NCBI GenBank assembly: GCA_030523345.1
Contig: JAUNIR010000003.1
Location: 1-64,000, forward strand
Reading direction: 5' to 3'
DNA length: 64,000 nucleotides
Source of the DNA: Lachnospiraceae bacterium
Lineage (GTDB): Bacteria > Bacillota > Clostridia > Lachnospirales > Lachnospiraceae
Shown here: piece by piece, positions 7,151 to 54,343 of the stretch
Position numbering within the stretch: position 1 is the first letter of the stretch
Layout of the letters: the number at the start of each line of letters is the position of its first letter
The notes under the pieces: model-generated
Told to the model about the DNA's origin: nothing
Seen by the model: only the letters and a program-made list of their open reading frames with translations
Database searches by the model: none
Made by a program: the position numbers and the translations under genes

Positions 7151-7714
7151 TTAGCTTAAGAAATCGTCATCATCATCTGTCGCGAAATCTGACTCAGCAC
7201 TAGACTTACCACCGAGAGGCTCACCGTCACGCATCTTCTGAAGGTTGTTAAGACCGCAGGCAATACCACGATTACCATTAGAGTTGAAAGCGTAAAGGTT
7301 GATAGAAGCTCTACCGTATACACCACTGTATACTTCTGAGCGGTCGAGGATAGGCTGACAATCAGCGTCAACAATACCAGGTGCAGTAGCGCTGTTGGCA
7401 TTGATGAAGTAAGAGTTAGCATATGCTTCATCACCAGGTCTTTCCTTGTCACCGTCACGAAGCGGATTCTTGATTACATCAAGAGCAGGACATACCTTTG
7501 CGGAACCCTTAAGCTTTGATTCACCTTCCTCATAAGCTGCCTGGATAGCGGCCTTGATCTTGTTGATAGTTACTGTATCGCTCTTTGGAATGATTAACGA
7601 TACGCTGTACTTTGGAGCTCCTCCGTTGATGCTCTTAGCATCCCATACATTTGCATAGCTCCATCTTGTGTTTACTCCTGTGATTACCTTTGTTGGATTC
7701 TGAACTTTAGACAT
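7151..7714 (-). CDS. DUF2815 family phage protein (ssDNA-binding-like)
   Basis: A 187-residue protein matching the DUF2815 family by its start (NPTKVITGVNTRWSYANVW), the NP-L-RDGD segment, the YANSYFINA core and a GGAPKYSV strand. The tail is very acidic (DDDDDF at the end), as in single-stranded DNA-binding proteins, where such a tip recruits partners. In related phages it sits between DUF2800 and DNA polymerase A, as here. The likely role is covering ssDNA during phage replication. Family assignment is firm; biochemical function is inference. Confidence 0.85.
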   Translation of the reverse strand: MSKVQNPTKVITGVNTRWSYANVWDAKSINGGAPKYSVSLIIPKSDTVTINKIKAAIQAAYEEGESKLKGSAKVCPALDVIKNPLRDGDKERPGDEAYANSYFINANSATAPGIVDADCQPILDRSEVYSGVYGRASINLYAFNSNGNRGIACGLNNLQKMRDGEPLGGKSSAESDFATDDDDDFLS

Positions 7715-41443: not shown

Positions 41444-41645
41444 CTATTGGAAGAACTGGCTTAAAGCCGCAGGTATTAGAGCAATTAAGACTGTCGCACA
41501 GACAGCTATTGCAACAATTGGAACTACTGCAGTAATGGGTGATGTGAACTGGGTAATGGTCGCGAGTGCATCGGCGCTTGCGGGTATCTTATCTTTACTT
41601 ACCAGTATCGCAGGTATCCCGGAAGTAAAGGAAGGTGATGAGTAA
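41436..41645 (+). CDS. Holin, phi LC3/r1t-like
   Basis: A 69-residue protein: an amphipathic start [21 protein letters not shown], membrane segments [13 protein letters not shown] and [20 protein letters not shown], and a charged end (EVKEGDE). It matches small class II phage holins. It forms membrane holes that release the endolysin, whose gene starts one base before this stop. Confidence 0.9.
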
Positions 41646-43174
41646 TGAAGCTTGTTGAAAGCATTCTTACAAAAAATCCGTGCTATACCGCTGGAAGAAA
41701 GATTGATGTTAAAGGGCTGATGTTACATTCGGTTGGGTGCTCCCAGCCGAAGGCATCAGCTTTTATTAATTCATGGAATAGTCCAACTTTTGAGAGGGCT
41801 TGTGTTCATGGTTTTATTGATGGAAATGACGGTACTGTTTACCAGACACTTCCTTGGGATCATAGAGGTTGGCATTGTGGCAGCTCTATCAATGGTAGCG
41901 GAAATAATACGCATATCGGAGTTGAGATGTGTGAGCCTGCTTGTATCACTTATACTGGCGGAGCTACTTTTAAGTGTTCTGACTTGGCAACAGCGAAGGC
42001 TGTAGCAGAAAGAACCTATCATGCAGCAGTTGAGCTTTTTGCTATGCTTTGTGATAAATTTGGTCTGGATCCTTTAGCAGATGGTGTGGTTATTAGCCAT
42101 AAGGAAGGTCATACAAGAGGTATCGCATCAAATCATGGTGATCCAGAGCATTTGTGGAGTCAGCTTGGTATGGGCTACACGATGGATACATTCCGTAAGG
42201 CGGTGAAAGCTAAGATGGGTGGAAGTGTTAAGACTTCTGGAACACAGGCATCTGAGTTTGCTAATCTTACAGAAGCACAGGCTGTTGCTAAGATTGGACC
42301 TCTTTGTAGGGAAGATATGAAGAAGAGTGGTATTCTTGCTTCGGTATCTGCAGCACAGTTCATTCTGGAAAGTGGATATGGTAAGAGCGAACTTGCACAG
42401 AATGCAAATAACTGTTTCGGAATGAAGAAGTCACTTTCTGGTAATAGCTGGAGCGGTTCTTCTTGGGATGGTACAAGCATCTATACAAAAAAGACGCAGG
42501 AACAGCACCCTGACGGAACTTATGAAACCATTACTGCTGATTTTAGAAAGTATCCTTGCGTTGAGGATTCTGTTGCTGATCATAGTGCATATCTTCTTGG
42601 AGCTAAGAATGGAAGAGCACTTCGCTATAAGGGTATTAAGGGAATGACTGATTATAAGGCAGTGGCTCAACTCATCAAAGACGGAGGATATGCTACTTCG
42701 CTTACTTATGTGGAGAAGCTTTGTAATATCATTGAGAAGTGGAACCTTACTCAGTATGATACTCAGGCAGCAGATACACCAAAGCCTGAATCACCTGATA
42801 CAGTGAAGACCTTCCCTGAAACACCTTTTACTGTTAAGGTACTTATTGACGATTTGAATTATCGTTCGGAGCCTTCTATGAAGGGAACTGTCAATGGGCA
42901 GACCCGTCGAGGCGTATTTACAATTATGGAAGTCAAGGATGGTTGGGGACGACTTAAGAGTGGTGCTGGCTGGATCTGGCTTGAAAATCCAACTTACTGT
43001 ACGGTACAGGGAACTGTCGCAAAAAAGGAGACAGTTGCTAAAACAGTTGACGAACTTGCAAAAGAAGTTATTCGAGGTGACTGGGGTAATGGCCAGGAGC
43101 GAAAGGAAAAGTTAACTGCAGCAGGTTATGATTATGGCACAATTCAAAAGAGAGTAAATGAACTCTTAAAATAA
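41645..43174 (+). CDS. Modular endolysin: amidase, glucosaminidase, SH3 and Cpl-7-like domains
   Basis: A 509-residue cell-wall hydrolase. Residues about 1-175: N-acetylmuramoyl-L-alanine amidase of the type 2/PGRP fold (LHSVGC, GWHCG, ISHKEGH with zinc ligands). About 200-375: glucosaminidase (ILASVSAAQFILESGYGKS, NCFGMKKS). About 390-440: SH3-like wall-binding part (NYRSEPSMKGTV). About 460-509: CW_7/Cpl-7 domain (VIRGDWGNGQERKEKLTAAG). Having two catalytic domains is a strong lysin. It overlaps the holin by one base. No signal peptide, so release depends on the holin. Confidence 0.95.
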   Translation: MKLVESILTKNPCYTAGRKIDVKGLMLHSVGCSQPKASAFINSWNSPTFERACVHGFIDGNDGTVYQTLPWDHRGWHCGSSINGSGNNTHIGVEMCEPACITYTGGATFKCSDLATAKAVAERTYHAAVELFAMLCDKFGLDPLADGVVISHKEGHTRGIASNHGDPEHLWSQLGMGYTMDTFRKAVKAKMGGSVKTSGTQASEFANLTEAQAVAKIGPLCREDMKKSGILASVSAAQFILESGYGKSELAQNANNCFGMKKSLSGNSWSGSSWDGTSIYTKKTQEQHPDGTYETITADFRKYPCVEDSVADHSAYLLGAKNGRALRYKGIKGMTDYKAVAQLIKDGGYATSLTYVEKLCNIIEKWNLTQYDTQAADTPKPESPDTVKTFPETPFTVKVLIDDLNYRSEPSMKGTVNGQTRRGVFTIMEVKDGWGRLKSGAGWIWLENPTYCTVQGTVAKKETVAKTVDELAKEVIRGDWGNGQERKEKLTAAGYDYGTIQKRVNELLK

Positions 43175-43184
43175 AGCTATTTTT

Positions 43185-43225
43185 GCGGGCTTGGAGGGAG
43201 AAATCCTTCTGGGTCCGCTTTTTTT
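43185..43225 (+). terminator. Strong terminator of the late operon
   Basis: GCGGGCTTGGAGGG pairs with CCTTCTGGGTCCGC (with mismatches), followed by seven T (43219-43225). It ends the late operon; the recombinase operon that follows has its own leader. Confidence 0.8.
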
Positions 43226-43254
43226 ATTTGTAAGAATTTGAAGAAAATCAAAGA

Positions 43255-43330
43255 AATTTTCAAAAGGCCCGGAAAATGAACTGCTAGCTCGACTTTGTAA
43301 GGTAAGAGAAGGTCGCGAACCTTCGAACGA
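43255..43330 (+). promoter_or_regulatory. Structured leader element C of the recombinase operon
   Basis: AAATTTTCAAAAGGCCCGG, then GGAAAA (core GCCCGGAAAA 43267-43276), CTCGACTTTG, AAGGTAAGAG, then hairpin GAAGGT-CGCGA-ACCTTC (43308-43324), and the ribosome site. The upstream AAATTTTCAAAA is also present in element A. It has the best hairpin of the three copies. Confidence 0.6.
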
Positions 43331-43347
43331 TTATGGAGGTAGAGACA

Positions 43348-43755
43348 ATGACTGACAAACAGAAGAACCAGATAGCAGTTTATCGAGAACAGGGAAAGAG
43401 CTATACAGATATTTCAAAGCTGATGGACCTTTCTATTAATAGCATAAAGACCTACTGCAAGAGACATGGGCTTGGAGGAAAACTCGCGTATGAAGCAGAA
43501 GTGGAATCAGATACTTCTTGTGAATACTGCGGAAAGCCAGTAGCGCAGAATCCTGGAAGAAAAAAGAAGCGCTTCTGTTCCAATAAGTGCAGAAATGCAT
43601 GGTGGAATGAGCACCAGGATCAGGTGAACAAGAAGGCACACTATGAATTTGTATGTCCTCATTGCCAGAAACCTTTTAGTGTGTATGGTAATAAAAACCG
43701 CAAGTTTTGCAGCCATTTTTGCTATGTGGAGGACCGCTTTGGAGGTGATCGTTAA
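43348..43755 (+). CDS. HTH plus zinc-ribbon protein of the recombinase operon
   Basis: A 135-residue protein. The N-terminal helix-turn-helix (NQIAVYREQGKSYTDISKLM, SINSIKTYCKRHG) is sigma-70-region-4-like. Two Cys-rich modules follow: CEYCGKPV...KRFCSNKCRNAWW and VCPHCQKPF...KFCSHFC, both probable zinc binders. GGAGG precedes ATG 43348. It is the first gene of the recombinase operon behind leader C and is a common companion of such recombinases. Likely transcriptional control of excision. Confidence 0.8.
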   Translation: MTDKQKNQIAVYREQGKSYTDISKLMDLSINSIKTYCKRHGLGGKLAYEAEVESDTSCEYCGKPVAQNPGRKKKRFCSNKCRNAWWNEHQDQVNKKAHYEFVCPHCQKPFSVYGNKNRKFCSHFCYVEDRFGGDR

Positions 43756-43967
43756 TGCAGGTATTAAATGATTCACCGGCTATGGTAGAGACTGCTCCAA
43801 GGGCAATGACACCAGAAGCAATGCAGCAGGATTTTGATTATATGATGGCAGAAAAAATGTCAAGGAAGCTCTATGAAAAGGGGCTGATTTCGATTGACGA
43901 ATTACACAAATTATCGGAGCTGAATCGCCAGAAATTCTCACCGTTTTATGCGGATTTAATGGCCTAA
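43755..43967 (+). CDS. SHOCT-like small protein
   Basis: A 70-residue protein with a C-terminal SHOCT-type motif (KLYEKGLISIDELHKLSEL). Its start shares one base with the previous stop. The family usually acts as an oligomerisation or membrane-tether module. It lies between the HTH protein and the first recombinase in phage and ICE relatives; it may help recombinase regulation. Confidence 0.75.
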   Translation: MQVLNDSPAMVETAPRAMTPEAMQQDFDYMMAEKMSRKLYEKGLISIDELHKLSELNRQKFSPFYADLMA

Positions 43968-44018
43968 ATAGCTTGATAATATGTGGCTTTAGAGTGATGT
44001 ATAGTACGACCAAACTAG
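43966..44018 (+). repeat. Recurring intergenic element, copy 4 (shortened)
   Basis: TTGATAATATGTGGCTTTAGA, then GTGATGTATAGTACGACCAAA, ahead of the recombinase ribosome site. It matches the right half of copies 1-3. Being next to a serine recombinase gene, it could also be part of an attachment or regulatory site. Confidence 0.45.
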
Positions 44019-44029
44019 GAGGTGAAACG

Positions 44030-45589
44030 GTGGCAAAGATAACAAAAATTGAAGCTACACAGAGCTTCAGCCAGGTAAAGAAAATAAGAGTTGCGGCATA
44101 TGCCAGAGTTTCTACTAGCTCAGAAGAGCAGCTTTCAAGTTTAGAAATTCAGAAGGAACATTATGACCGATTCATTGGTGATAATCCTGAATGGGAATAT
44201 GCTGGGCTCTACTACGATGAAGGTATAAGCGGCTTGAAGTTAGCAAACAGAGATGGCTTGCTTAGACTTTTGAAAGACTGTGATGACGGAAAGATTGATA
44301 GGGTTATTACAAAGTCCATCAGCCGATTTTCAAGAAATGTCACAGACTGCCTTGAGATGGTACGAAGGCTCACAAGGAACGGTATTTACATCCTTTTTGA
44401 AAAGGAGAATATCGACACCGAGCACATGAGCTCAGAGCTTATGCTTTCCATCTTGAGTTCTATTGCAGAAAGTGAATCAAGGTCCATTTCTGAAAACAGC
44501 AAGTGGTCTGTAAAACACCGCTTTGAAGCAGGAACATTTATTATAAGCTACCCGCCATACGGATATGACAATGTGGATGGCAAGATGGTAATTGTTCCTG
44601 AAGAAGCTGAGGTTGTAAGAAAGATATTTGATATGGCCATTTCAGGATCCGGTTCTTACATTATTGCAAATTGGCTTAACAGCCAGGGCATTACTCCAAA
44701 GAGAGGGACCAAGTGGCACCCATCAACGGTGCAGGGAGTTCTTAAGAATGAGAAGTATACCGGGGATGTTATTTTCCAGAAGTCATACACGGATGAGAAC
44801 TTTAACAGGCATACCAATTATGGTGAGAAAAACATGTACCTTTGCAAAAATCATCACGAGGCAATTATTAGCCATGAGATTTTTGACAAGGTTGCAGATG
44901 TGATGAGCCAGCGAGGTGCAGAGAAAAGGATTGACGCAGGGGATGGAAAATACCTACAGAGATATGCCTTTTCAGGAAAGCTTATCTGTGGCGATTGCGG
45001 TAGTACATTTAAGAGAAGACGTCACTACAAGCCAAGCGGAGAGTATATTGCTTGGACTTGCAATTTGCACCTGGATGATAAAGAAGCCTGCTCAATGCTT
45101 TACATTACCGACGAAGCAATCAAGACCGCTTTTGTAAGAATGATGCGAAAACTAACTGCCTGTAGAGAACAGATTTTAAGACCTTTCTTAGAGGCACTCA
45201 GGGGAGTAAACAATAAGGATTTATTGCTTCAGATTATCGAGCTTGAGGAAAAAATCGAGAAGAACACTGAGCAGCAAAACGTTCTGGTGAGCCTCATGCG
45301 CTCCGGATATATTGAGCCGACACTTTTTCATTCAGAAAGAAATGAGCTGGTGCAGGAAGCAGCAGAGCTTGAACGCAAGAGAAAAGGCCTATCAATGTGC
45401 GTTAATGGAGATCTTGAACATACCGACGAGGCATCAAAGCTACTTAAGTTCTTTATAAGAACAACGGAAATTACTGAATACTCGGATGAGTTATTTCTTG
45501 AATATGTAGATAACATGACGGTCCTTTCAAGAGAGAAGATAGTTTTCAATCTGAAGTGTGGACTTAAGTTAATGGAAAGGTTGGTGTAA
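44030..45589 (+). CDS. Large serine recombinase (first of the triplet)
   Basis: A 519-residue recombinase. N-terminal resolvase domain with nucleophile Ser28 in YARVSTSS, and the catalytic Arg block in KSISRFSRNV. A Recombinase domain (PPYGYDN...GILNSQGITPK type) follows, then a zinc-ribbon (CGDCGSTFKRR...C) and a long coiled coil. It starts at GTG 44030: AGGAGGTGAAACG is just upstream and no ATG is suitable. Likely the integrase/excisionase of the element together with the 46007 protein. Its target att site is not identified. Confidence 0.93.
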   Translation: MAKITKIEATQSFSQVKKIRVAAYARVSTSSEEQLSSLEIQKEHYDRFIGDNPEWEYAGLYYDEGISGLKLANRDGLLRLLKDCDDGKIDRVITKSISRFSRNVTDCLEMVRRLTRNGIYILFEKENIDTEHMSSELMLSILSSIAESESRSISENSKWSVKHRFEAGTFIISYPPYGYDNVDGKMVIVPEEAEVVRKIFDMAISGSGSYIIANWLNSQGITPKRGTKWHPSTVQGVLKNEKYTGDVIFQKSYTDENFNRHTNYGEKNMYLCKNHHEAIISHEIFDKVADVMSQRGAEKRIDAGDGKYLQRYAFSGKLICGDCGSTFKRRRHYKPSGEYIAWTCNLHLDDKEACSMLYITDEAIKTAFVRMMRKLTACREQILRPFLEALRGVNNKDLLLQIIELEEKIEKNTEQQNVLVSLMRSGYIEPTLFHSERNELVQEAAELERKRKGLSMCVNGDLEHTDEASKLLKFFIRTTEITEYSDELFLEYVDNMTVLSREKIVFNLKCGLKLMERLV

Positions 45590-45591
45590 GC

Positions 45592-46014
45592 ATGGCAGGA
45601 CATACGCCTTATGGCTATAAGATAGTGGATGCGAGAGCAGTTATTGATGAACCAGCCGCAGAGAAGCTAAGGCAGCTTTATTTGGAATTTGTTGAGTGCG
45701 GATCCATGAGAGCCGCAGCGACTAAGGTTGGAATTGAAAAGACGCATTCGGTAATTGGCAGGTTACTTAATAAGGAACTTTATACAGGGACTGATTATTA
45801 CCCAGCAATTATCGATAAGGAGTTATTTGATAAGGCCCAGGAGAGAAGAAAGAACAATGCTAGAAGCCAGAACCGCATCAGGCCTTATGAGATAAAGGAA
45901 CCGGAACCAGAGCCGGTCAATTTTCACCTAAAGAAAGTAAGCACAAAGTTTGATGATCCATACAAACAAGCAGAATATGCCTACGGGCTAATTGAGGAGG
46001 AATTCGATGAATGA
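45592..46014 (+). CDS. Recombinase-domain protein lacking the catalytic domain (second of the triplet)
   Basis: A 140-residue protein. It carries only the Recombinase-type DNA-binding part ([47 protein letters not shown]) and an acidic/charged C-terminus, with no resolvase domain and no Ser motif. It sits between two full recombinases and overlaps the next gene by 8 bases. This middle, catalysis-free gene is a known companion in such triplets and probably acts as a directionality or assembly partner. It is not simply a fragment, since its ends are clean and the overlap is coupled. Confidence 0.8.
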
Positions 46015-47578
46015 GAATGTAACCTTGATACCGGCAAGAAGACGTGCTGGCAGCAGGATTATAACAAAAGAAGAAAAGCCTAAACTCAGAGTCGCAGCGT
46101 ACTGCCGAGTTAGTACTGACAGCGATGAGCAGGCAGGAAGTTATGAAGTCCAGGTTCAGCATTACACCGATTATATAGAAAGAAATGCCGACTGGGAGCT
46201 TGCAGGCATTTATGCAGATGATGGTATTTCCGGAACTAATACAAAGAAAAGAGAAGCCTTCAATGATATGATTGATGATTGTATGGCTGGCAAAATCGAT
46301 ATGGTGATAACAAAGTCCATCAGTCGATTTGCCAGAAATACCATTGATTGTCTTAAGTATGTGCGCCAGCTCAAAGAGAAGAATATTGCTATTGTTTTTG
46401 AAAAGGAAAACATCAATACCCTGGAAGCCAGCGGAGAATTGCTTCTCACCATAATGGCCAGCCTCGCGCAACAGGAAAGTGCCTCTTTATCCCAGAACGT
46501 TAAGCTTGGCTTGCAATTTAGATATCAGGAAGGAAAGGTTCAGGTCAATCATAATCATTTCCTTGGTTATACAAAAGACGAAGAAGGGAACCTGATTGTG
46601 GATGAAGAAGAAGCCAAGATTGTAAGGCGAATCTACTTAGAGTTTTTAAATGGCGCTAGCTTAAGGGATATCAGTGAAGGCCTGGAACGAGACAAAATCA
46701 AGACAGGCGGTAAAAGGGAAAAGTGGCATCAAAGCACAATTCTTGGAATTCTAAAGAATGAAAAGTATATCGGAGATGCGCTTTTGCAGAAAACCATTAC
46801 TACGGACTTTATTGAAAAGACCAGAATTAAGAATGATGGAACAGCGCCGCAGTATTATGTGAAGGATAGTCAGGAAGCAATTATCTCCAGAGATGTTCAT
46901 GCGCAGGTGCAGGAAGAATTGGTGCGAAGGGCGAACCTTTTTAGCGGAGAGGATGGAAAAAAGCGACGCATCTATTCCAGCAAGTATGCGCTTTCAAGCA
47001 TATGCACATGTTCCAGATGCGGTGATATTTACAGAAGAATCGCCTGGAACAATCGAGGAAAGCGTAGTACGGTTTGGCGCTGCTGTACTAGAGTTGAGAA
47101 TGGACCGGCGGCATGTGATGCACCAACGGTACCGGAAGAAGAACTGCAGCAGGCCACGGTAAAAGCCATCAACAGTGCAATTAAGTGTTCTGCATCGATG
47201 CTTGAGATACTTAGTGAGAATTTAAAAATAGTATCTGCAGATGATGATTCCGGAGAGCTTGAGCAGATCAACGAGCTTCTTAAGGTAAAGCAGAAAGAAC
47301 TTGTAAAGCTGGCCCATGCAAACAAGGATTACACAGCTATCACAAGTGAGATTGATATTCTTCAGGAAAAGAAGCAGAAGATCCTTGTTAAAAAAGCTCA
47401 GACAGAGGGCGTAAAAATAAGAATCAAGGAGATGCAGGAGTTCCTATTAGGATCCGACCAGGAGCTTGAAGAGTACGACGAGATTATGGTCAGAAGATAT
47501 GTTGAGAGCATAAAGATATTTGATGATAAGTTCATTGTTATTTTTAAGGCTGGCAATGAGATAGAGGTTTCAAGATAA
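46007..47578 (+). CDS. Large serine recombinase (third of the triplet)
   Basis: A 523-residue recombinase. Nucleophile Ser36 in [21 protein letters not shown] and the [12 protein letters not shown] helix complete the catalytic domain. The Recombinase domain includes the [16 protein letters not shown] segment, followed by [10 protein letters not shown] zinc ribbon and a coiled coil. GAGGAGG precedes ATG 46007. Immediately downstream begins host-like repeated intergenic DNA, so this gene marks the right end of the phage; attR should lie in 47579-47734. Confidence 0.93.
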
Positions 47579-47583
47579 ACCAA

Positions 47584-47624
47584 GCGTCCGAGGTGGCATG
47601 ATACCACTTCCGGGCGTGTTTTAT
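47584..47624 (+). terminator. Terminator module T1 of the orphan cassette
   Basis: GCGTCCGAGGTGGCATGAT pairs with ATACCACTTCCGGGCGT (near-complete palindrome) and is followed by GTTTTATTT. Two more copies lie at 48601 and 49752, each followed by the direct-repeat operator. The one here lies just after the last phage gene and so may be part of the host sequence at the insertion edge. Confidence 0.7.
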
Positions 47625-47697
47625 TTCCAAAATTGAAATATCCGTTCCAATTTTGACTTGGGCATTAAGTAATGAGATTCAGGTTTCGATAGTATAA
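47625..47697 (+). promoter_or_regulatory. Direct-repeat operator plus sigma28-like promoter P1
   Basis: TTCCAAAATTGA (47625) and TTCCAATTTTGA (47645), period 20. TAAG at 47666 and TTCGATAG at 47685 (15 bases between). The same layout (repeat pair, 9-base gap, TAAG-N15-NNCGATA) occurs at 48645 and 51941, and with small changes at 49789. Direct repeats two helical turns apart are typical for LytTR regulators. Confidence 0.65.
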
Positions 47698-47734
47698 ATA
47701 GAAATCTAAGTAATGAAGATCAGGAGGCGCTTAA

Positions 47735-48532
47735 ATGAATATAGGGAATACAATAGCACATTATGCTCATAATTATGCTTCTAGTGCTTCTACTGTGTCT
47801 GCTACAGAAAAGGCATTAAATGCTTATAAAGATAACTCCAAGAATGTTTCATCAAAAAATACTGATACTGTGGAGATTTCATCAGATGGATATGAAATGC
47901 AATCAAAGGCAGATAAACTGACTGCGACATCCGGACAAGATAAACTTGGTATAACTCAAGGAGAAAATCCAAATAGTTATGTGATTCACTTTGACAATAT
48001 TGCGTTGGCTCATAGAGCTGTTGAAAGAGGATATATAACTGTTAATGGCCAGGACATCCAATTATCTGACGAAGTAAAAAAGAAAATTTTGGAAACTAGT
48101 CAGAAGGCTTTTGAAGCTAGTGAAAAGGCAACAATGCAGTATGCTATGCAACATAATTCTATTGTAGCAAGGCAACAGGCAGAAGCGTGGGGCGAAGAGT
48201 CGAAAAGAATGTCCAGAGCAATGTCTGTAATGTCAAAGATTGCTTCTGGAGGAAAAGTATCTGAAGCTGATAGAAAGTTCTTGGCTGAGTATAATCCAGA
48301 AATGTATGCTATGGCCATTAGTGCAGAGATGATGGCAGAAAGGCAGGAAAAACAAGAAGAGAAGCATCTTTCTGAAATTCGAGAGGAGTCAAAGGAACAA
48401 ATTCCAACAGAGGATTATGCTAAAGAGCTTGGTGAATTAAAGCATGAATATACAGAGGCTACTTTGGAAGTTTCGTTTGATAATGGAAATGCCGTTGTTG
48501 GGGAAGTAGGAACTAATACATTTAATTATTAA
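47735..48532 (+). CDS. Orphan coiled-coil protein, paralogue of the 11025 protein
   Basis: A 265-residue hydrophilic protein without signal peptide or membrane segment. It starts MNIGNTIAHYAHNYASSAST, a Ser/Asn-rich flexible stretch, then a folded region with SYVIHFDNIALAHRAVERGYI, then an Ala/Glu/Lys coiled coil. The block AMSVMSKIASGGKVS...L-EYNPEMYAMA aligns with the 11025 protein. AGGAGG precedes the start. It is the first gene behind promoter P1. Unknown function; late-flagellar-type expression is suggested by the promoter. Confidence 0.65.
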   Translation: MNIGNTIAHYAHNYASSASTVSATEKALNAYKDNSKNVSSKNTDTVEISSDGYEMQSKADKLTATSGQDKLGITQGENPNSYVIHFDNIALAHRAVERGYITVNGQDIQLSDEVKKKILETSQKAFEASEKATMQYAMQHNSIVARQQAEAWGEESKRMSRAMSVMSKIASGGKVSEADRKFLAEYNPEMYAMAISAEMMAERQEKQEEKHLSEIREESKEQIPTEDYAKELGELKHEYTEATLEVSFDNGNAVVGEVGTNTFNY

Positions 48533-48600
48533 AATTGTATGATGAGCAGATTATTTCTATGATTGCTTATAGATAAAAAAGAAGAACTAATTGATTATGT

Positions 48601-48644
48601 GCGTCCGGGGGTGGCATGATACCACTTCTGGGCGTGTTTTTTGT
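48601..48644 (+). terminator. Terminator module T2 of the orphan cassette
   Basis: GCGTCCGGGGGTGGCATGAT pairs with ATACCACTTCTGGGCGT, followed by GTTTTTTG. It is a copy of the 47584 module. The 48533-48842 gap holds this terminator, operator-promoter P2 and a structured leader; no further gene. Confidence 0.7.
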
Positions 48645-48715
48645 TTCCAGAATTGATATATTCGTTCCAATTTTGATATGGGCGTTAAGGAATAAGGATT
48701 AGATATCGATAAGAT
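48645..48715 (+). promoter_or_regulatory. Direct-repeat operator plus sigma28-like promoter P2
   Basis: TTCCAGAATTGA (48645) and TTCCAATTTTGA (48665), period 20; TAAG 48686, then 15 bases, then ATCGATAA (48705). Confidence 0.65.
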
Positions 48716-48773
48716 AAATAGAAAACTATTCTTGAAAAGGATTTCATATAGTTAAACTTATAGAATTGTATTG

Positions 48774-48842
48774 CCGCTCGGACCTTTCTGGAGAGCGGTG
48801 CAGCTATGACTGACAGATTGGCTGCGGAAGGGATGGTAATAT
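48774..48842 (+). promoter_or_regulatory. Double-hairpin leader L1 with paired GGA motifs
   Basis: Hairpin 1: CCGCTC, loop GGACCTTTCTGGA, GAGCGG (48774-48798). Hairpin 2: GCAGCT (48800-48805) with GGCTGC (48820-48825). Then GGAAGGGATGG as ribosome region. Copies at 52073 and 53495 keep the loop unchanged and conserve hairpin 2 by compensating changes. A short frame ATGACTGACAGATTGGCT (48806) overlaps the main start. Confidence 0.65.
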
Positions 48843-49736
48843 ATGCAAATTAATAGAACAGATATATTACAAAGTCAGCAGATTAATTCATCAAAACATG
48901 TGAATACAACTCAGAAGTCATTTGGAGATGTGTTCTCAAAGAAAATATCAAGTAAGAAGGATGAGTATATTGCTTCTGAGATAGGTGCATACACTTATGC
49001 TACATATAATTCGAAAGGGATTATACCAGGAGATATTAAAAGCACTGAAACAGATCAATATACCATTAGTGGCAGAGATGGTGGATATTTGCGAATTGAA
49101 AATAAAGAAACAAAAGAAGGATTTATGTGGAAACTTGGAGAGAATAGTATCCAGGTTGATGCAGAAACTGGTCAGAAGTTTCTGATAAATGATTTGGGTG
49201 CAGGTTTCTTTAATATGGTTGCTGTTGATTCAACATTGGAAAATGCTATCAAGGAGTCATTAGGTGTTGATGAATTAGAGGAAAAACAACTCGAAAATTT
49301 TACTGTTCACCAAGATGGAAATACGGGAATATATTATATAACAGCAAATGGGTATGAAAGTCAGGGGGGACAACTTATTTTAGACGATAATGCAAAACAA
49401 AAGTTAGATGCTCTTGCTGATAAATATATGGAGCAATACCCACAGTTGTTGAAAAACAAGCAGGAGGCATGGTTCTACGCAACATTTGAAGTTAGGGGTA
49501 TGGCGAAACGAACAAATAGTGGAATTATGACAATTAGCCCTAATAGTATCTCATTTAAAGACAAATATAATGAGAATAGTTGGACTAGCGTATTTGATCC
49601 AAGAGATTGGGGAAATGTAAAGTCAAAATATGACAGCGGTTCTGGTGATTTAGATTATAGCAAGTGGCTATATTGGGATAGTTTCTTTAAATCAAATAAA
49701 ATTTCAGGAACTCTTATTCAAGCTGATACAAATTAA
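48843..49736 (+). CDS. Orphan protein, unknown function
   Basis: A 297-residue protein starting MQINRTDILQSQQINSS. There is a Ser/Asn-rich N-terminal tail, then a folded alpha-beta region (YTISGRDGGYLRIENKETKEG, MWKLGENSIQVD) and a C-terminal domain with FVYATFEVRGMAKRTNSGIMTI-like strands (F-E-V-R-G-M-AKRTNSG). No signal peptide, membrane helix or enzyme motif. Promoter P2 and leader L1 precede it and terminator T3 follows, so it is monocistronic. Same style as the other cassette members but no clear sequence homology with them. Function unknown. Confidence 0.65.
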   Translation: MQINRTDILQSQQINSSKHVNTTQKSFGDVFSKKISSKKDEYIASEIGAYTYATYNSKGIIPGDIKSTETDQYTISGRDGGYLRIENKETKEGFMWKLGENSIQVDAETGQKFLINDLGAGFFNMVAVDSTLENAIKESLGVDELEEKQLENFTVHQDGNTGIYYITANGYESQGGQLILDDNAKQKLDALADKYMEQYPQLLKNKQEAWFYATFEVRGMAKRTNSGIMTISPNSISFKDKYNENSWTSVFDPRDWGNVKSKYDSGSGDLDYSKWLYWDSFFKSNKISGTLIQADTN

Positions 49737-49751
49737 ATAAGTATCTATATT

Positions 49752-49788
49752 CGTCCGGGGTGGAATACCACTTCCGGGCGTTTTTTAT
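49752..49788 (+). terminator. Terminator module T3 of the orphan cassette
   Basis: CGTCCGGGGTGG-AATA-CCACTTCCGGGCG, then TTTTTTATT. It is a shorter copy of the 47584 module, ahead of operator-promoter P3. Confidence 0.7.
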
Positions 49789-49856
49789 TTCCAAAATTGA
49801 TATATTCGTTCCAATTTTGCAATAGAGTTGAACTATAAAGCTATTGTTCCGATAAT
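49789..49856 (+). promoter_or_regulatory. Direct-repeat operator plus promoter P3 of the LytTR/kinase operon
   Basis: TTCCAAAATTGA (49789) and TTCCAATTTTGC (49809), period 20. TTGA (49828) with 15 bases to TTCCGATAAT (49847). Operators ahead of the regulator's own gene indicate feedback control. Confidence 0.6.
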
Positions 49857-49906
49857 ATTATAAGGGTTACTATGCCCTAGTTTATTGTGGCAGGAGTTGT
49901 TGCTGT

Positions 49907-50632
49907 ATGGTTAAAATTGCGATATGTGAAGATGACATATTTTATATGAAAAAAGCAAAGCAACTAGTTGAAGATTTCTTTAAGGAAAGAGAACTGAGAT
50001 TTAGCTTGATAACTTTCCAATCTGGCATAGAGCTGACAAAGAATTTTCGAGAAAATTATGACATTCTTTTTCTAGATATTAGCATGGAAGAGATGGATGG
50101 TCTCGAGGCTGCCAGGTGGTTAAGAGAAAATGGCTCGAAGGCTTGTATTGTTTTCCTTACTGGTTATCCAGAATATTCGCTTGAAGGTTATAAAGTTGAT
50201 GCACACAGGTATCTACTCAAAAACGCAGAAAACATAAAAGAAGCATTAAATGAATGTTTGAGCAGTGCATTGGAGAAAATGCAAAAGGATGAGAAGAAGA
50301 TAGATTTAGATGTTCAGGGTGGAATTTTATCGATTGCTCCATCAAAGATTGTATATGCAGAGAGTAAGGTTCACAGGGTTACGATTCATGTGTTAGAAAA
50401 TTCCGGGGATATGCAGGAATACTATATGTATGATCGCTTGGATCATGTTCAGGAACAATTAGCACACTTAGGCTTTATGCGTATCCACCAAAGTTACCTA
50501 ATTAATAGAGAATACCTAAAAACTGTATGCAGGTATAAAGCAGAGCTTATTGCAGGTATTAGCTTGGGTATTTCTAAGAAGTATTACAAAGACTTAGAAG
50601 ATTACTATATCCGTATGAGAGGAGAATTCTAA
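49907..50632 (+). CDS. LytTR-family response regulator
   Basis: A 241-residue regulator. REC domain with acidic pocket (ICEDD), phospho-acceptor Asp57 in LFLDISMEEMDG, and Lys in the conserved beta-5 region (YLLKNAE). C-terminal LytTR DNA-binding domain (IVYAESKVHRVTIHV, RIHQSYLINREYL). It shares one base with the kinase start. LytTR proteins bind two direct repeats about two turns apart; such repeats (TTCCAAAATTGA/TTCCAATTTTGA) precede this gene and three neighbours, making it their likely regulator. No AgrB/AgrD genes are visible. Confidence 0.9.
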   Translation: MVKIAICEDDIFYMKKAKQLVEDFFKERELRFSLITFQSGIELTKNFRENYDILFLDISMEEMDGLEAARWLRENGSKACIVFLTGYPEYSLEGYKVDAHRYLLKNAENIKEALNECLSSALEKMQKDEKKIDLDVQGGILSIAPSKIVYAESKVHRVTIHVLENSGDMQEYYMYDRLDHVQEQLAHLGFMRIHQSYLINREYLKTVCRYKAELIAGISLGISKKYYKDLEDYYIRMRGEF

Positions 50633-51939
50633 TGTTTCCAATAATATCTTGTACCATTTTGACATTGGTTCAGATTGTGACATATATAAGTTTACTTGAG
50701 GTGTTTGCCGAGACGAGGCCATGGTTTCAAAAACATAAAGTGTTAGTAACAATATTGGCTACTGCAAATTGCATTTTATGGGCCTTTGTTTTAGATGCTT
50801 ACTTGTACATAAAACTCGTGACGACAGTCTTGTCATATTTTGTTATCGCCAAGTTTGTGGTAAATGCAAAAAATACAGCGGTATCAGCTCTAACTATGAT
50901 GTACTACAATTTGTTGATTTTGCTGGAATTCATAATTGCAATGGTTTCTATGAAACTGGAACTCTTCAGCGCTGTAAGAGAACAATGGGAGTATGATTTT
51001 TTACGACTGCAAATTGTTCTTGTAGAGGTTGTGATTCTTATTGCAATTTTTGTTGTAGGTAAGAAAAATAAAGGAAAACTCAAAGAAATTATGAGACTTT
51101 TGGAAACAAGAGACTGGGTAGGAATATTTATAATTTCATTTGTTTCGTCTTTGATTATTTCTATTACAGCAAAGGAATCCGGTATGGTAGATATGTATCA
51201 TTTGGATTTGTTTATAGTTCTGATAGGTCTTTCCACTGTATTTATGAATGTGGCTATTATTAGATTATTCATCCAGTCTGTAAAGAGGCAGAAACATATT
51301 CTTGAAAGTGAGGCAATCCTAAATCGTGTAAAAAATGAGACAATGCTTTATCGTTCTATTTCTGATTACTTAGATAAGCAGAGAAAAAGAGCGCATGAAT
51401 TTGATAATCAACTGGATGCTATTAAGGGCATGCTTGAGCAGGGAAATATAAAGGAACTAGGGGAGTACGTAAATATTTTGAAAGAAAAGAAACCGAAGGA
51501 ACGACCTATCATTGATACGAACCATGTTATAGTAAATGCTATTTTGAATACTAAGTATGTTGAGATGCGAGACAAGGACATTTTGTTTGTCATGAAGATA
51601 AACGATTTGTCTGGTTTGACAATTCGTGATGATGACCTGGTTGTGCTGCTTTCCAACCTTTTGAATAATGCGATTGAAGCCTGTGAGCAAGCGAAAGAGA
51701 AAGTTGTAAAGATGAAGTTTGTGATTGAGGATAACCAGATTATTTTATCGGTTAAGAACTCCATTGCAGAACTTCCAACGCAGGTGGATGGAAAGATAGT
51801 AACTTCTAAGACAGACCATCCGGAAGAACATGGTATAGGTCTTAAGAATGTTGAAGAAGTAATAGAAAAGTACAATGGTGGTTATGTAATTGATTTTGAT
51901 AATGAATTGTTTTCAATTTCAATGATGATTCCATTATAA
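50632..51939 (+). CDS. GHKL-family sensor histidine kinase, AgrC-like
   Basis: A 435-residue membrane kinase. About six membrane helices cover residues 1-210 (for example LTLVQIVTYISLLEVF and VVILIAIFVVGKK), as in AgrC/ComD peptide receptors. The phosphorylated His is near 255 in AHEFDNQLDAIKG. The ATPase domain has NLLNNAIEACEQ (N box) and GIGLKNVEEVIEKYNG (G box). It pairs with the LytTR regulator. The signal is not known: no peptide precursor or processing gene lies beside it, so a peptide or other extracellular cue made elsewhere is probable. Confidence 0.9.
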   Translation: MFPIISCTILTLVQIVTYISLLEVFAETRPWFQKHKVLVTILATANCILWAFVLDAYLYIKLVTTVLSYFVIAKFVVNAKNTAVSALTMMYYNLLILLEFIIAMVSMKLELFSAVREQWEYDFLRLQIVLVEVVILIAIFVVGKKNKGKLKEIMRLLETRDWVGIFIISFVSSLIISITAKESGMVDMYHLDLFIVLIGLSTVFMNVAIIRLFIQSVKRQKHILESEAILNRVKNETMLYRSISDYLDKQRKRAHEFDNQLDAIKGMLEQGNIKELGEYVNILKEKKPKERPIIDTNHVIVNAILNTKYVEMRDKDILFVMKINDLSGLTIRDDDLVVLLSNLLNNAIEACEQAKEKVVKMKFVIEDNQIILSVKNSIAELPTQVDGKIVTSKTDHPEEHGIGLKNVEEVIEKYNGGYVIDFDNELFSISMMIPL

Positions 51940-51940
51940 T

Positions 51941-52010
51941 TTCCAATTTTGACTATATCGTTCCAATTTTGATAACAGCGTTAAGAAATTCAATTATGGC
52001 TTCGATAGGA
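51941..52010 (+). promoter_or_regulatory. Direct-repeat operator plus sigma28-like promoter P4
   Basis: TTCCAATTTTGA (51941) and again (51961), period 20. TAAG at 51982, 15 bases, TTCGATAG at 52001. It begins two bases after the kinase stop. Confidence 0.65.
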
Positions 52011-52072
52011 TAAGTAGGAGACTATATTTTGAAACGGATTTCATTTGTAAAATACTAATTCATAATACGCAG

Positions 52073-52139
52073 CCGCTCGGACCTTTCTGGAGAGCGGTGT
52101 GGCCATGACTGATAGATTGGCTACGGAAAGGAGAAACAA
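52073..52139 (+). promoter_or_regulatory. Double-hairpin leader L2 with paired GGA motifs
   Basis: Hairpin 1: CCGCTC, GGACCTTTCTGGA, GAGCGG (52073-52097). Hairpin 2: GTGGCC (52099-52104) with GGCTAC (52119-52124): G-C, U-A, G-U, G-C, C-G, C-G, against GCAGCT/GGCTGC in L1, so base pairing is kept while sequence changes. A short frame starts ATGACTGATAGATTGGCT (52105). Confidence 0.65.
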
Positions 52140-53009
52140 ATGGGAATTGGAGCAATTGGTAACGGTATAGGAACTAATGACATAATAAGAACTAATAGCA
52201 GACGTGTCTTAGGGGAAAAGTTTAATTATTCATTAGAAACTGTAAATAGTGGAAGTAAAGTGAATGAACCATTGATGTCGTTCTCGAACCCTAAAACTGG
52301 GGAGAGCATAGAAATACATCGTTCTGATGTGTATGCAGAGGATAATCCTCTTTATGTATTAAAGGGGAGAACAGCAGAGGGAGATAGCTTCGAGAGAACA
52401 GTTCATGCCTGGATTATTGATCCAAGGAATTGTGACTATTCTGAAATGATGGTTCTTAATTTGGAAACAGGAAACACTTCTCCGGCAGATAAAGCAAGAG
52501 TAGATGCTTTGTTTGATAGCATAGTAGAAAAAGGAAAAGAAGATGACGAGGCGGCTGTAACAAAATACTTAGACAAAGCTGATTACAGCACTGCAATGAA
52601 AGATGTTCTTGATGAGTATAAGAAAGCTGGTAACTGGGACAGCTATCTTTCGATGGATAAGTGGCAGCAAAGCATAAAAGATTATACCTCAGTGCCTGTA
52701 TATTTTAATCGTGATATCATGAATAATTCATCTACGATAGAACGAAATGGTGTAAAAGGTGCGTGTAGCTTTGCATCCGTTAAAACTGCAGAAGATATAA
52801 TGAAGGAAATTGATGACAGAGTTAAAGCAGCAGAAAAGAATGGACCTACTTTACGAGAGGCATTAGCAAATCATTGTCCAAATGCAAAGAACATGCTTTA
52901 TGGAATGGTAGGTTCATCAGACGTTATGACATTTGATGAATGCGTAAAGTATTTAGAAGAACAATTCAAAATAATGGATGAAAAAGCAAAATCTTCTTTG
53001 GTTGGATAA
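52140..53009 (+). CDS. Orphan protein, paralogue of the 53569 protein
   Basis: A 289-residue protein with a Gly/Asn-rich start MGIGAIGNGIGTNDII. The core TGESIEIHRSD...AEGDSFERTVH...YSEMMVLN and the later AMKDVLDEYKKAGNWDSYL match TGESIGIFYDE...ADGSENEMKIN...YVEMLALS and AMKEMVNDALKDGRMDTYL of the 53569 protein, so the two are homologous. No signal peptide or membrane segment. Behind promoter P4 and leader L2. Unknown function. Confidence 0.65.
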   Translation: MGIGAIGNGIGTNDIIRTNSRRVLGEKFNYSLETVNSGSKVNEPLMSFSNPKTGESIEIHRSDVYAEDNPLYVLKGRTAEGDSFERTVHAWIIDPRNCDYSEMMVLNLETGNTSPADKARVDALFDSIVEKGKEDDEAAVTKYLDKADYSTAMKDVLDEYKKAGNWDSYLSMDKWQQSIKDYTSVPVYFNRDIMNNSSTIERNGVKGACSFASVKTAEDIMKEIDDRVKAAEKNGPTLREALANHCPNAKNMLYGMVGSSDVMTFDECVKYLEEQFKIMDEKAKSSLVG

Positions 53010-53084
53010 GTTCTAGATTTTTTATGCGACTTTATGATTTTATGGTTCAGTAAAGAATTTTAACGGAGTACATAGAAACAAATA

Positions 53085-53129
53085 AAGTAAACGGAATTAC
53101 TTAATAAGAATACAGGGAGGTTGAATTCG
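53085..53129 (+). promoter_or_regulatory. GGA-loop hairpin leader before the broken 53130 gene
   Basis: AAGTAA (53085-53090), loop ACGGAA, TTACTT (53097-53102), then ACAGGGAGG. Nearly the same as the leaders at 9893 and 10982, about 43 kb away across the prophage. Confidence 0.55.
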
Positions 53130-53478
53130 ATGGGAATTAATGTAACAGATTATCGATATTTGTTTGATGCCATGTTCGGTAATAACAATAATGGGAAAAA
53201 TATGGGGATGATGAAATCCTCTGATTTATCAACGAGATCAGGACAAGCTCAACTTAGGGCTGCTGGCATTGATAGCATCGGCATTAAATTCATTGATTAA
53301 AGTTGCAAATGGTCAAATTCCTATGAATATGTTTCATAGTAGCCGAACACAGGATAATAGCGAATATGCTAAAAAGGGGTTGCAGGCATTTGGAATTGAT
53401 ACATCAAAACCATTTATTATTAATGAAAAAGCCTTTCATTTTGATAGCGAAGGAAAGATTCGTTTAGGAGACAAATAA
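53130..53478 (+). pseudogene. Orphan-cassette gene broken by a frameshift
   Basis: ATG 53130 (MGINVTDYRYLFDAMFG, good ribosome site) is open only to 53300. A second frame from about 53269 (ASALNSLIKVANGQIPMNMF to the end GKIRLGDK) continues to 53478 with no start or ribosome site of its own. Joined by a one-base shift near 53262-53275 they make a normal ~115-residue protein. A sequencing error, true decay or recoding cannot be told apart here. Confidence 0.6.
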
Positions 53479-53494
53479 ATTAAATTCAAAAATA

Positions 53495-53568
53495 CCGCTT
53501 GGACCTTTCTGGAGAGCGGAGTAGCTGTGATTGATAGAACAGCCATAAGAAAAATGGAGGTTAGATTT
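53495..53568 (+). promoter_or_regulatory. Double-hairpin leader L3 with paired GGA motifs
   Basis: Hairpin 1: CCGCTT, GGACCTTTCTGGA, GAGCGG (one wobble). Hairpin 2: GCTGT (53524-53528) with ACAGC (53539-53543). The loop of hairpin 1 is identical in all three copies. No sigma28-like promoter was found directly upstream, so it may be read through from P4 or the 53.0 kb region. Confidence 0.6.
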
Positions 53569-54123
53569 ATGAGTATATCAGGTGTAGGTAATAATTATAG
53601 TTTTAACGCAGCAAACATTGGAAACAATTCATCCAGTCGTGTCAGCGGAGAACAAAAAAAGTTCAACATGGATAAGGAGTATAAGTTGCAGGCTAACTCT
53701 GTGTTATCAACTGTGAGAATAGAAACAGGTGAGTCTATAGGCATTTTTTATGATGAAACTTCAACAAAGAGTAATCCGGTAATGCTTGCAAAGATTATTG
53801 ATGCTGATGGTAGCGAAAACGAGATGAAAATTAATATTAACGATGTTAATCCAAGTGATGCATCTTATGTTGAAATGCTGGCGTTATCAGCTCATCTCAA
53901 AACTGAAGGTAAGATAGAGGGACCTGCAGGAGCATTTGCAACAATGGTATTTAATGCGAGAGTAAAAGAGGCAAATGAAAGAAACATATATGCAAAAGAA
54001 GATTTTATGCCAGCTATGAAGGAAATGGTAAATGATGCGTTAAAAGACGGACGTATGGATACATACCTTAGATATCTTAAAGAATTAGATATTTACAGTA
54101 ACTGGGGTAAGAAATCCAATTAA
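53569..54123 (+). CDS. Orphan protein, paralogue of the 52140 protein
   Basis: A 184-residue protein beginning MSISGVGNNYSFNAANIGNN, a short flexible tail like the flagellin-type M-x-I-x starts. The folded part has TGESIGIFYDE and a late AMKEMVNDALKDGRMDTYLRYL block, both shared with the 52140 protein. ATG 53569 has GGAGG upstream; the longer frame from the leader (GTG-type start near 53527) is in frame and might give a minor longer form. A terminator follows. Unknown function. Confidence 0.65.
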   Translation: MSISGVGNNYSFNAANIGNNSSSRVSGEQKKFNMDKEYKLQANSVLSTVRIETGESIGIFYDETSTKSNPVMLAKIIDADGSENEMKININDVNPSDASYVEMLALSAHLKTEGKIEGPAGAFATMVFNARVKEANERNIYAKEDFMPAMKEMVNDALKDGRMDTYLRYLKELDIYSNWGKKSN

Positions 54124-54142
54124 GTTGTTATATATTTTTCAT

Positions 54143-54178
54143 GGGGTGTTCAAAAGTGGACACCCCTTATTTCTTTAT
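54143..54178 (+). terminator. Terminator ending the orphan cassette
   Basis: GGGGTGTTCA-AAAG-TGGACACCCC (10 pairs) then TTATTTCTTTATTTT. Nearly the same as the first hairpin at 11710. The next 165 bases (to 54343) hold no gene; a TATAAT-like box is seen near 54290. Confidence 0.8.
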
Positions 54179-54343
54179 TTTGAACACCCTGTGTTCGTTG
54201 TTGAATTGTATCAATATCTAAGGGGGAATGAAGCTGTATGGGCATCCGGGAGTGGAGACACTTTAGATTGATTTTGTTCGTGGTTTGGAATATAATATTT
54301 AAGTGTAGATTAGTTTCACTTTCGGTTTCTTTGGAGGTCTAAC

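Follow-up and report, generated by a model that had tools for sequence, protein, structure and literature searches.

A 64,000-nt stretch of DNA from a Lachnospiraceae bacterium (contig JAUNIR010000003.1 of assembly GCA_030523345.1, positions 1 to 64,000; hereafter the window) contains, at 47.6-54.2 kb, an island with four intact small-protein genes, one broken one, and one gene pair encoding a LytTR response regulator and a GHKL kinase. We believe, with a probability of roughly 0.57, that the island is a sigma28-type regulon activated by LytTR and composed of genes for predicted hook-stage flagellar export substrates, and that it is coupled to the flagellar hook through an RNA leader shared with the hook gene flgE. 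We directly observed the anatomy of the promoters and its recurrence with diverged repeats, covariation in an RNA that precedes flgE, and nearly complete co-occurrence of this RNA with fliA. The island is likely linked to the flagellum. All island features described below are on the forward strand, and genes are named by their first position in the window.

Three genes of the island are preceded by a double-hairpin RNA leader. Copy 1 (48774..48831) is upstream from 48843, copy 2 (52073..52130) is upstream from 52140, and copy 3 (53495..53552) is upstream from 53569. A preliminary description of this DNA had proposed a leader common to 48843 and 52140; both of these copies are as described, but copy 3 was absent from that account and the leader is also found at flgE across the class. 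In the consensus, hairpin 1 has a GGA bulge followed by C, and hairpin 2 has a UGANYGAYAGA loop. The double-hairpin pattern had no matches in 100 shuffles. Diverged copies were found upstream from relatives of 52140 in other Lachnospiraceae, and a covariance model made from 20 non-window copies recovered all three window copies (E-values of 1e-7 to 5e-6). All 54 matches to this model had the same orientation as the query gene.

The leader is a covarying RNA family with no Rfam match in the loci scanned. In an unfitted alignment (n = 20), 97.5% of cells paired and the covariation score was 0.250, compared to 0.201 for shuffled alignments. Three larger alignments were fitted to the structure of the model. 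Among 47 distinct fitted sequences, 95.6% of cells paired, with two-sided changes in 10 of the 18 pairs; the covariation score was 0.606 for 96 distinct fitted sequences (0.265 shuffled) and 0.716 for 28 leaders from other families (0.247 shuffled). Two other measures were weak: the number of pairs with two-sided changes in the 96-sequence set was reached in 52 of 500 shuffles, and the number of pair types in the 28-sequence set was reached in 276 of 500. Rfam 15 gave no gathering-level match in the window; at leader copies, it gave none at E ≤5 in 47500-54300 and none at E ≤1 in the 10 of 20 family loci and 12 of 28 class loci that were scanned.

The leader is located upstream from flgE throughout the class. 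Model R2 found copies in 51 of 299 family genomes, including several weak matches about 20 kb before fliA, and flgE was directly downstream in 18 of the 20 weak-match and similar loci that we inspected. Model R3 found copies in 102 of the 299 genomes. Among the matches listed, 53 copies were on the same contig and strand as fliA at a distance of 16.2-25.6 kb (median of 20.7 kb), and the 13 of these that were inspected all had flgE. In the window genome itself, a leader copy precedes flgE (G000:C85; E-value of 5.7e-8); copies were also found, at E ≤0.003, at 11 of 16 flgE loci from genomes in which the scan had shown no flgE copy. In a class-wide draw, copies were present in 38 of 291 genomes, 36 of them outside the family; we inspected 28 of these 36 other-family loci and found flgE behind the leader in all 28 (25 with one script and three with a second). 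Leader counts are lower bounds, as 18-19 candidates were scored per genome.

The presence of the leader coincided with that of flagellar regulators. FliA was found in 101 of the 102 leader genomes, compared to 152 of 299 overall (the exception, G042, was below the cut-off), and CsrA was found in 99 of the 102, also compared to 152 of 299 overall. The window genome has both FliA (272.7 bits; cut-off of 189.6) and csrA. Fisher tests on such counts treat related genomes as independent, and their small p-values overstate that independence.

Part of the leader is complementary to the Shine-Dalgarno sequence. The GGACCUU of GGACC-type leaders paired with the Shine-Dalgarno sequence with a mean of -7.9 kcal/mol at 42 flgE genes (-4.1 for shuffled strands) and a mean of -7.5 at 30 other GGACC-type genes (-5.3 shuffled). 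Swapped partners paired nearly equally, indicating complementarity and not gene-specific covariation. Leaders of a second type, GGACT, are expanded in the islands of G264, G262, and G268 and in L018-L034, with at least 13 copies in G264.

There are two candidate CsrA-type hexaloop hairpins upstream from leader copies in the window, at 48733..48746 (TGAA-AAGGAT-TTCA) and 52030..52043 (TGAA-ACGGAT-TTCA). The predicted folds of the two leader transcripts were only partly better than those of shuffled sequences (z of -2.76 for transcript 1 and -1.11 for the second). In the fold predicted for transcript 1 (48712-48842), the sequence immediately upstream from the hexaloop is paired with the Shine-Dalgarno region, a second possible way in which the ribosome site might be hidden.

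We considered whether the leader mainly serves as a target of CsrA, which, opposed by FliW, would repress flgE and the genes of the island as it does flagellin, landing on the double hairpin. The distribution of csrA described above fits this, and hexaloop hairpins were present within 150 nt upstream from the leader in eight of 30 GGACC-type genes other than flgE, including the two in the window (0.66 in shuffles, maximum of 3). The window copy-1 hexaloop forms in the predicted fold. According to parts of a published report, the flaA leader of Campylobacter jejuni has two GGA hairpins and flgE is listed as CsrA-enriched (PMC4894983). However, a hexaloop was inside the double hairpin itself in only three of 137 copies, the model places the GGA of the leader in a bulge, and the conserved loop of hairpin 2 contains no GGA. 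There was no excess of hexaloops at GGACT-type genes (2 of 88, compared to 2.0 in shuffles), and those at flgE (6 of 19; 0.33 in shuffles, maximum of 3) may be coding, as five fall within the end (NIDGAV) of the gene upstream, where the sequence is conserved. In the minimum-energy fold, the hexaloop of window copy 2 does not form, and no csrA was detected in three leader genomes (G002, G137, and G240). We think it somewhat unlikely that the leader is a CsrA target and little else, and retain CsrA as the first candidate for the partner of the leader.

The genes behind the leader encode small proteins, some of which look like hook-stage flagellar export substrates. We identified 141 distinct leader copies, 139 of which had a downstream open reading frame (ORF). 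This ORF was flgE in 19 of the 139, and many of the others encode small proteins beginning with MSVNGIG, MSIAGLG, MAMEIT, or similar. This list includes wrong ORF picks (e.g., L058, L112, L120, and L127), which were retained in the motif counts below. In the window, 48843 (48843..49736) encodes a predicted hook-stage export substrate of 297 amino acids, 52140 (52140..53009) encodes a predicted export substrate of 289 amino acids, and 53569 (53569..54123) encodes a relative of 52140 of 184 amino acids. The fourth intact gene, 47735 (47735..48532), encodes a protein of 265 amino acids with no assigned function; it has a promoter module of the kind described below, and neither a double-hairpin leader nor an export gate-like motif was seen.

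The preliminary description had called the products of the island small, soluble orphan paralogues. The first part of this is not simply so, given the resemblance of some of them to export substrates, and they are not orphans: database searches gave 97 matches for 52140, 68 for 48843, and 36 for 47735, counting the proteins' own and near-identical entries. Nor are they paralogues in general, as 52140 and 53569 were the only detectably similar pair among the four intact small proteins (29%, E-value of 9e-14).

The N-termini of 48843 and 52140 were modeled with low confidence, are probably disordered, and contain a motif resembling an early flagellar export gate signal. The general form of the gate signal is Fxxx-hydrophobic. 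In 48843, residues 1-62 had a predicted local distance difference test score (pLDDT) below 50 and the rest of the model was mostly confident; the motif is F27-GDV-F31, and a helix is drawn at residues 27-36 inside the low-confidence stretch. In the 48843 family (27 rows from the 68 matches, its own included), 24 of 27 had F27 and 25 of 27 had a hydrophobic residue at position 31. The N-terminus of this family is otherwise variable, and, the start residue apart, F27 exceeds all others of the first 60 positions in conservation. The motif of 52140 is F28-NYS-L32, also in a low-confidence N-terminus (the model as a whole is weak, with a mean pLDDT of 66.9), and in its family 27 of 30 rows had F28 and all 30 had a hydrophobic residue at position 32. 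FlgE itself has such residues at 41 in the five sequences listed. Small, non-polar residues close to the N-terminus, a criterion for hook/rod-type export substrates, were noted by eye only (MGIG, MSIS, MQIN). Parts of one report give the export signals of FlgD as SIAV at residues 2-5 and FLTLL at residues 36-40 (PMC8983047).

The gate-like motif was enriched among leader proteins as a group. We dropped 15 of the 139 ORFs because they were shorter than 80 amino acids and 21 near-duplicates from the remaining 105 that were not flgE; the motif was present in 44 of the resulting 84 proteins, compared to 12.5 in shuffles (maximum of 23). Export of the leader proteins is nonetheless predicted from these features of sequence and is not a result.

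The leader proteins could instead stay in the cytoplasm as regulators of the flagellum or as accessories to its structure (such as hook-length or anti-sigma-like factors), with a motif that mimics export signals. The same motif was in 188 of 567 control ORFs, and 11 of 65 leader proteins matched DUF6033 and one matched DUF3879, in a Pfam scan that took 65 of 79 representatives (L058, L112, L120, L127, and ten others were omitted). We know of no function for DUF6033 or DUF3879. The conservation of F27 in the 48843 family argues against a cytoplasmic role, as does the sharing of the leader with flgE, which encodes an exported protein, and we regard this explanation as unlikely.

The identity of the downstream genes also bears on whether the double hairpin binds a small molecule as a riboswitch aptamer and so controls translation of the hook gene and accessory genes. 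Such an aptamer would be consistent with nearly invariant nucleotides in both the internal and the apical loops of the two helices, which are short and covary, with the class-wide distribution of the leader, and with the possible switch in pairing between hairpin 1 and the Shine-Dalgarno sequence. However, the leader is only about 60 nt long, there was no Rfam match at it in the loci scanned, and, a few doubtful ORF picks aside, the copies inspected precede flgE or small unassigned proteins and not metabolic or transport genes. We consider a riboswitch improbable.

Four genes of the island are downstream from a composite promoter. The 93-nt promoter copies start at 47616, 48636 (81% identity to the first), 49780 (61%), and 51932 (67%) and precede 47735, 48843, the LytTR gene 49907, and 52140, respectively. 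Each module has two TTCCA-type boxes with a 20-bp period, and CGATA starts 29-30 nt past the second repeat in all four. The repeat pair of module 1 (47625..47656, second repeat from 47645), a presumed LytTR site, is TTCCAAAATTGA N8 TTCCAATTTTGA. The other pairs, located by a pattern search of the genome, are at 48645..48676 (second repeat from 48665), 49789..49820 (from 49809), and 51941..51972 (from 51961), the last consisting of two identical copies of TTCCAATTTTGA. Allowing up to three mismatches, these four were the only matches to the repeat pair in the 2.84-Mb genome, compared to none on the other strand and none for the reversed pattern. A sigma28-like promoter was found by pattern 8-9 nt past each pair, with the form TAAG-N15-NNCGATA at 47666..47692 (TAAG-N15-TTCGATAG), 48686..48712 (TAAG-N15-ATCGATAA), and 51982..52008 (TAAG-N15-TTCGATAG), and TGAA-N15-NNCGATA at 49829..49855 (TGAA-N15-TCCGATAA).

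These results bear out the four promoters of the preliminary description, each a 20-base-period repeat, a gap, and an NNCGATA box, including the one in front of the LytTR and kinase genes (module 3, 49789-49855). Its -35 sequence of TAAG or TTGA held as TAAG at three modules; TTGA is one base off, and the fourth is TGAA. The same terminator-like hairpin is located upstream from module 1 (47585..47624; CGTCCG...CGGGCG), module 2 (48602..48640), and module 3 (49752..49788); of these copies, a terminator scanner accepted that of module 2 and missed the other two. Because three of the four modules share this hairpin, they look like duplicated cassettes.

The composite architecture recurs in relatives, with different repeats. 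The preliminary description had suggested a search of related genomes for the repeat with its downstream box; we found the architecture in a sister species and other Lachnospiraceae, but the repeat sequences differ. The sister species G193, of the same genus, has the repeat ATAGTCGTTTTA-N9-ATAGTCGTTTTA with a 21-bp period in a similar plan. In two islands, four sites are upstream from leader genes and from regulator genes, of which one is split, and each site has CGATA at 32-33 nt. Genome-wide, there were six such sites in G193, compared to none (forward) and one (reverse) in controls, and CGATA was at 32-33 nt in five of the six. Other islands have TTTCGTTCCC pairs ahead of ...CTGCCGATAT, and CCGATA-type -10 boxes are present at several relatives. 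Diverged repeats with conserved geometry are what would be expected from regulators and sites that co-evolve.

We counted composites with a script that called for a pair of 10-mers with at least 8 matches, a period of 20-22, and a position 24-35 nt upstream from CGATA, criteria that were fixed only after examples had been looked at. A composite was upstream from 13 of 25 regulator-query ORFs (that of the window included, and ORFs with less than 150 nt of upstream sequence left out), compared to 0.08 in shuffles (maximum of 2), and from five of 116 non-flgE leader genes (0.30 in shuffles, maximum of 2). Among 636 ORFs of at least 120 amino acids in the loci collected, from which 21 overlapping loci had been removed, 25 had a composite: 10 response regulators, eight mixed, and seven that were leader-borne or 52140-like small proteins or 47735 of the window. 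Recurrence strongly backs the composite promoter, which LytTR proteins would bind and at which sigma28 would be used. It is very doubtful that the CGATA boxes are coincidental and that transcription depends on the housekeeping sigma factor together with a LytTR activator: L033 has similar two-component genes and four repeat pairs without CGATA, and there is a TTGAAC-N17-GATAAT match at 49828, but CGATA is at a nearly fixed distance from diverged repeats in many genomes, and sigma70-like matches in the window were not above shuffles (25 compared to 28.7).

Several findings weigh against a LytTR-activated, sigma28-type regulon of export substrates with a hook-coupled leader. The -35 sequences of the modules are TAAG (three) or TGAA (one) and not the consensus TAAA. 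The full composite was present at none of 19 flgE genes and at just the five of 116 other leader genes given above, and a sigma28-like promoter was within 250 nt upstream from 10 of 120 non-flgE leader genes (2.0 in shuffles, maximum of 7). Gene 47735 has the promoter module without the leader and without the gate-like motif. This motif is unspecific, with the 188 control ORFs amounting to 33% (Fisher p of 9e-4, with the caveat on independence given above) and a modest excess of leader proteins over these controls. Among the three leader proteins of the window, only 48843 has its strict form, as the F of 52140 follows a K and 53569 did not match. There was no fold match for two of the proteins. 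GGACT-type leaders had no Shine-Dalgarno complementarity (-2.3 compared to -2.5, 53 genes), and their genes had no excess of sigma28 promoters or CsrA sites. Lastly, the leader genomes G002, G137, and G240 had no CsrA at the cut-off.

In the mechanism that we favor, a signal would reach the AgrC-like kinase, and the phosphorylated LytTR protein would bind the repeats just upstream from the weak -35 sequence and recruit sigma28 polymerase. With LytTR and sigma28 at one promoter, both the signal and flagellar progress would be needed. The transcript would form the double hairpin, and in GGACC-type leaders the GGACC strand could alternatively pair with the Shine-Dalgarno sequence. A flagellar factor (CsrA, another protein, or a ligand) would switch translation of flgE and the island genes together, and the proteins encoded by the leader genes would exit through the hook-type export gate. 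More tentatively, and with somewhat less than even confidence, we suggest that a class-wide, hitherto undescribed RNA switch of the hook gene was copied onto fast-evolving small proteins with sigma28 promoters activated by a two-component sensor, forming a hook-stage export regulon, that these proteins are translated only during hook export, and that gut Clostridia generally secrete proteins induced by signals through the flagellum.

The island resembles AgrA/VirR-type LytTR regulons in having a LytTR regulator with a GHKL kinase and direct repeats about two turns apart, also upstream from the regulator itself, and differs from them in that the repeats precede a sigma28-type -10 box. We know of no LytTR regulon with repeats in this position. 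The NNCGATA -10 boxes and the FliA in nearly all leader genomes are features of the late flagellar regulon of sigma28 (FliA). The sigma28 promoter of Butyrivibrio fibrisolvens is given as TAAA-N16-17-MCGATAa in parts of one report (PMC3720852). The -35 sequences of the island differ from this regulon, and its upstream repeat pair is like that of an activator-dependent promoter.

The leader of hag in Bacillus subtilis is a flagellin leader controlled by CsrA and FliW. That of flaA in C. jejuni is another; according to parts of the report cited above (PMC4894983), it resembles the leader described here in being short, lying 5' on the mRNA of a flagellar gene, and having two hairpins with GGA. 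The leader described here differs from such leaders in targeting the hook gene and accessory proteins, in having its GGA in a bulge, and in the loop of hairpin 2. In Salmonella, the hook protein FlgE is controlled post-transcriptionally by the stage of assembly, a likeness to the regulation of hook synthesis after transcription proposed here, in a different phylum; we know of no shared RNA element for this control. The Fed and Cia proteins of Campylobacter are sigma28-dependent and secreted through the flagellum. The island proteins are likened to these as non-structural proteins co-expressed with flagella and exported through them (both predicted here), and differ in phylum, in the RNA leader shared with flgE, and in the hook-type signals.

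We regard the RNA family as new, and the other components (LytTR regulons, sigma28 genes, CsrA leaders, and flagellar secretion of non-structural proteins) are known singly. Among the matches listed in our literature searches, there was no RNA element at flgE of this class and no LytTR-sigma28 composite promoter, and a word search of the main text of a 2010 report of candidate RNAs (PMC2864571) found no mention of flagellar, flgE, or hook. If our interpretation is correct, the hook gene throughout a bacterial class is accompanied by a conserved cis-regulatory RNA that is new, giving a handle on the post-transcriptional timing of hook synthesis, as well as a LytTR-activated, sigma28-type promoter. 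A search with one 60-nt RNA would then list candidate flagellar-exported proteins in Lachnospiraceae and relatives, and DUF6033 and many unnamed families would gain a context and a testable role.

We noted several other features of the regulators and their sites. In the window, the LytTR response regulator (49907..50632) and the AgrC-like, GHKL-type sensor kinase (50632..51939) were identified by domain search (LytTR, 1e-15; receiver, 4e-13; GHKL, 1.3e-25). LytTR-type two-component genes are recurrent in leader-gene islands family-wide, at many loci among L020-L047. The four paired repeats of L033 (CCGTTTTCTGCAAA, 20 bp), at 7684, 14926, 15859, and 17576, lack CGATA and are in the vicinity of two-component genes of a similar kind; the same type of regulator may operate there with another sigma factor. 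On the csrA contig of the window's own genome (L013, 714-1184), a small ORF at the csrA locus has a repeat pair plus CGATA upstream, which is either chance or a member of the regulon.

Two other regions are within or next to the island. Downstream from 52140, at 53130-53479, a DUF3879-type gene is apparently broken; its 5' frame ends at 53300, the remainder is in another frame, and the first piece matched Pfam only at an E-value of 0.08. On the other side, the end of a phage-like module adjoins the island, with an endolysin-like amidase/glucosaminidase gene and, past it, three genes or gene fragments for serine recombinases (43973, 45592, and 45992) at 41645-47578.

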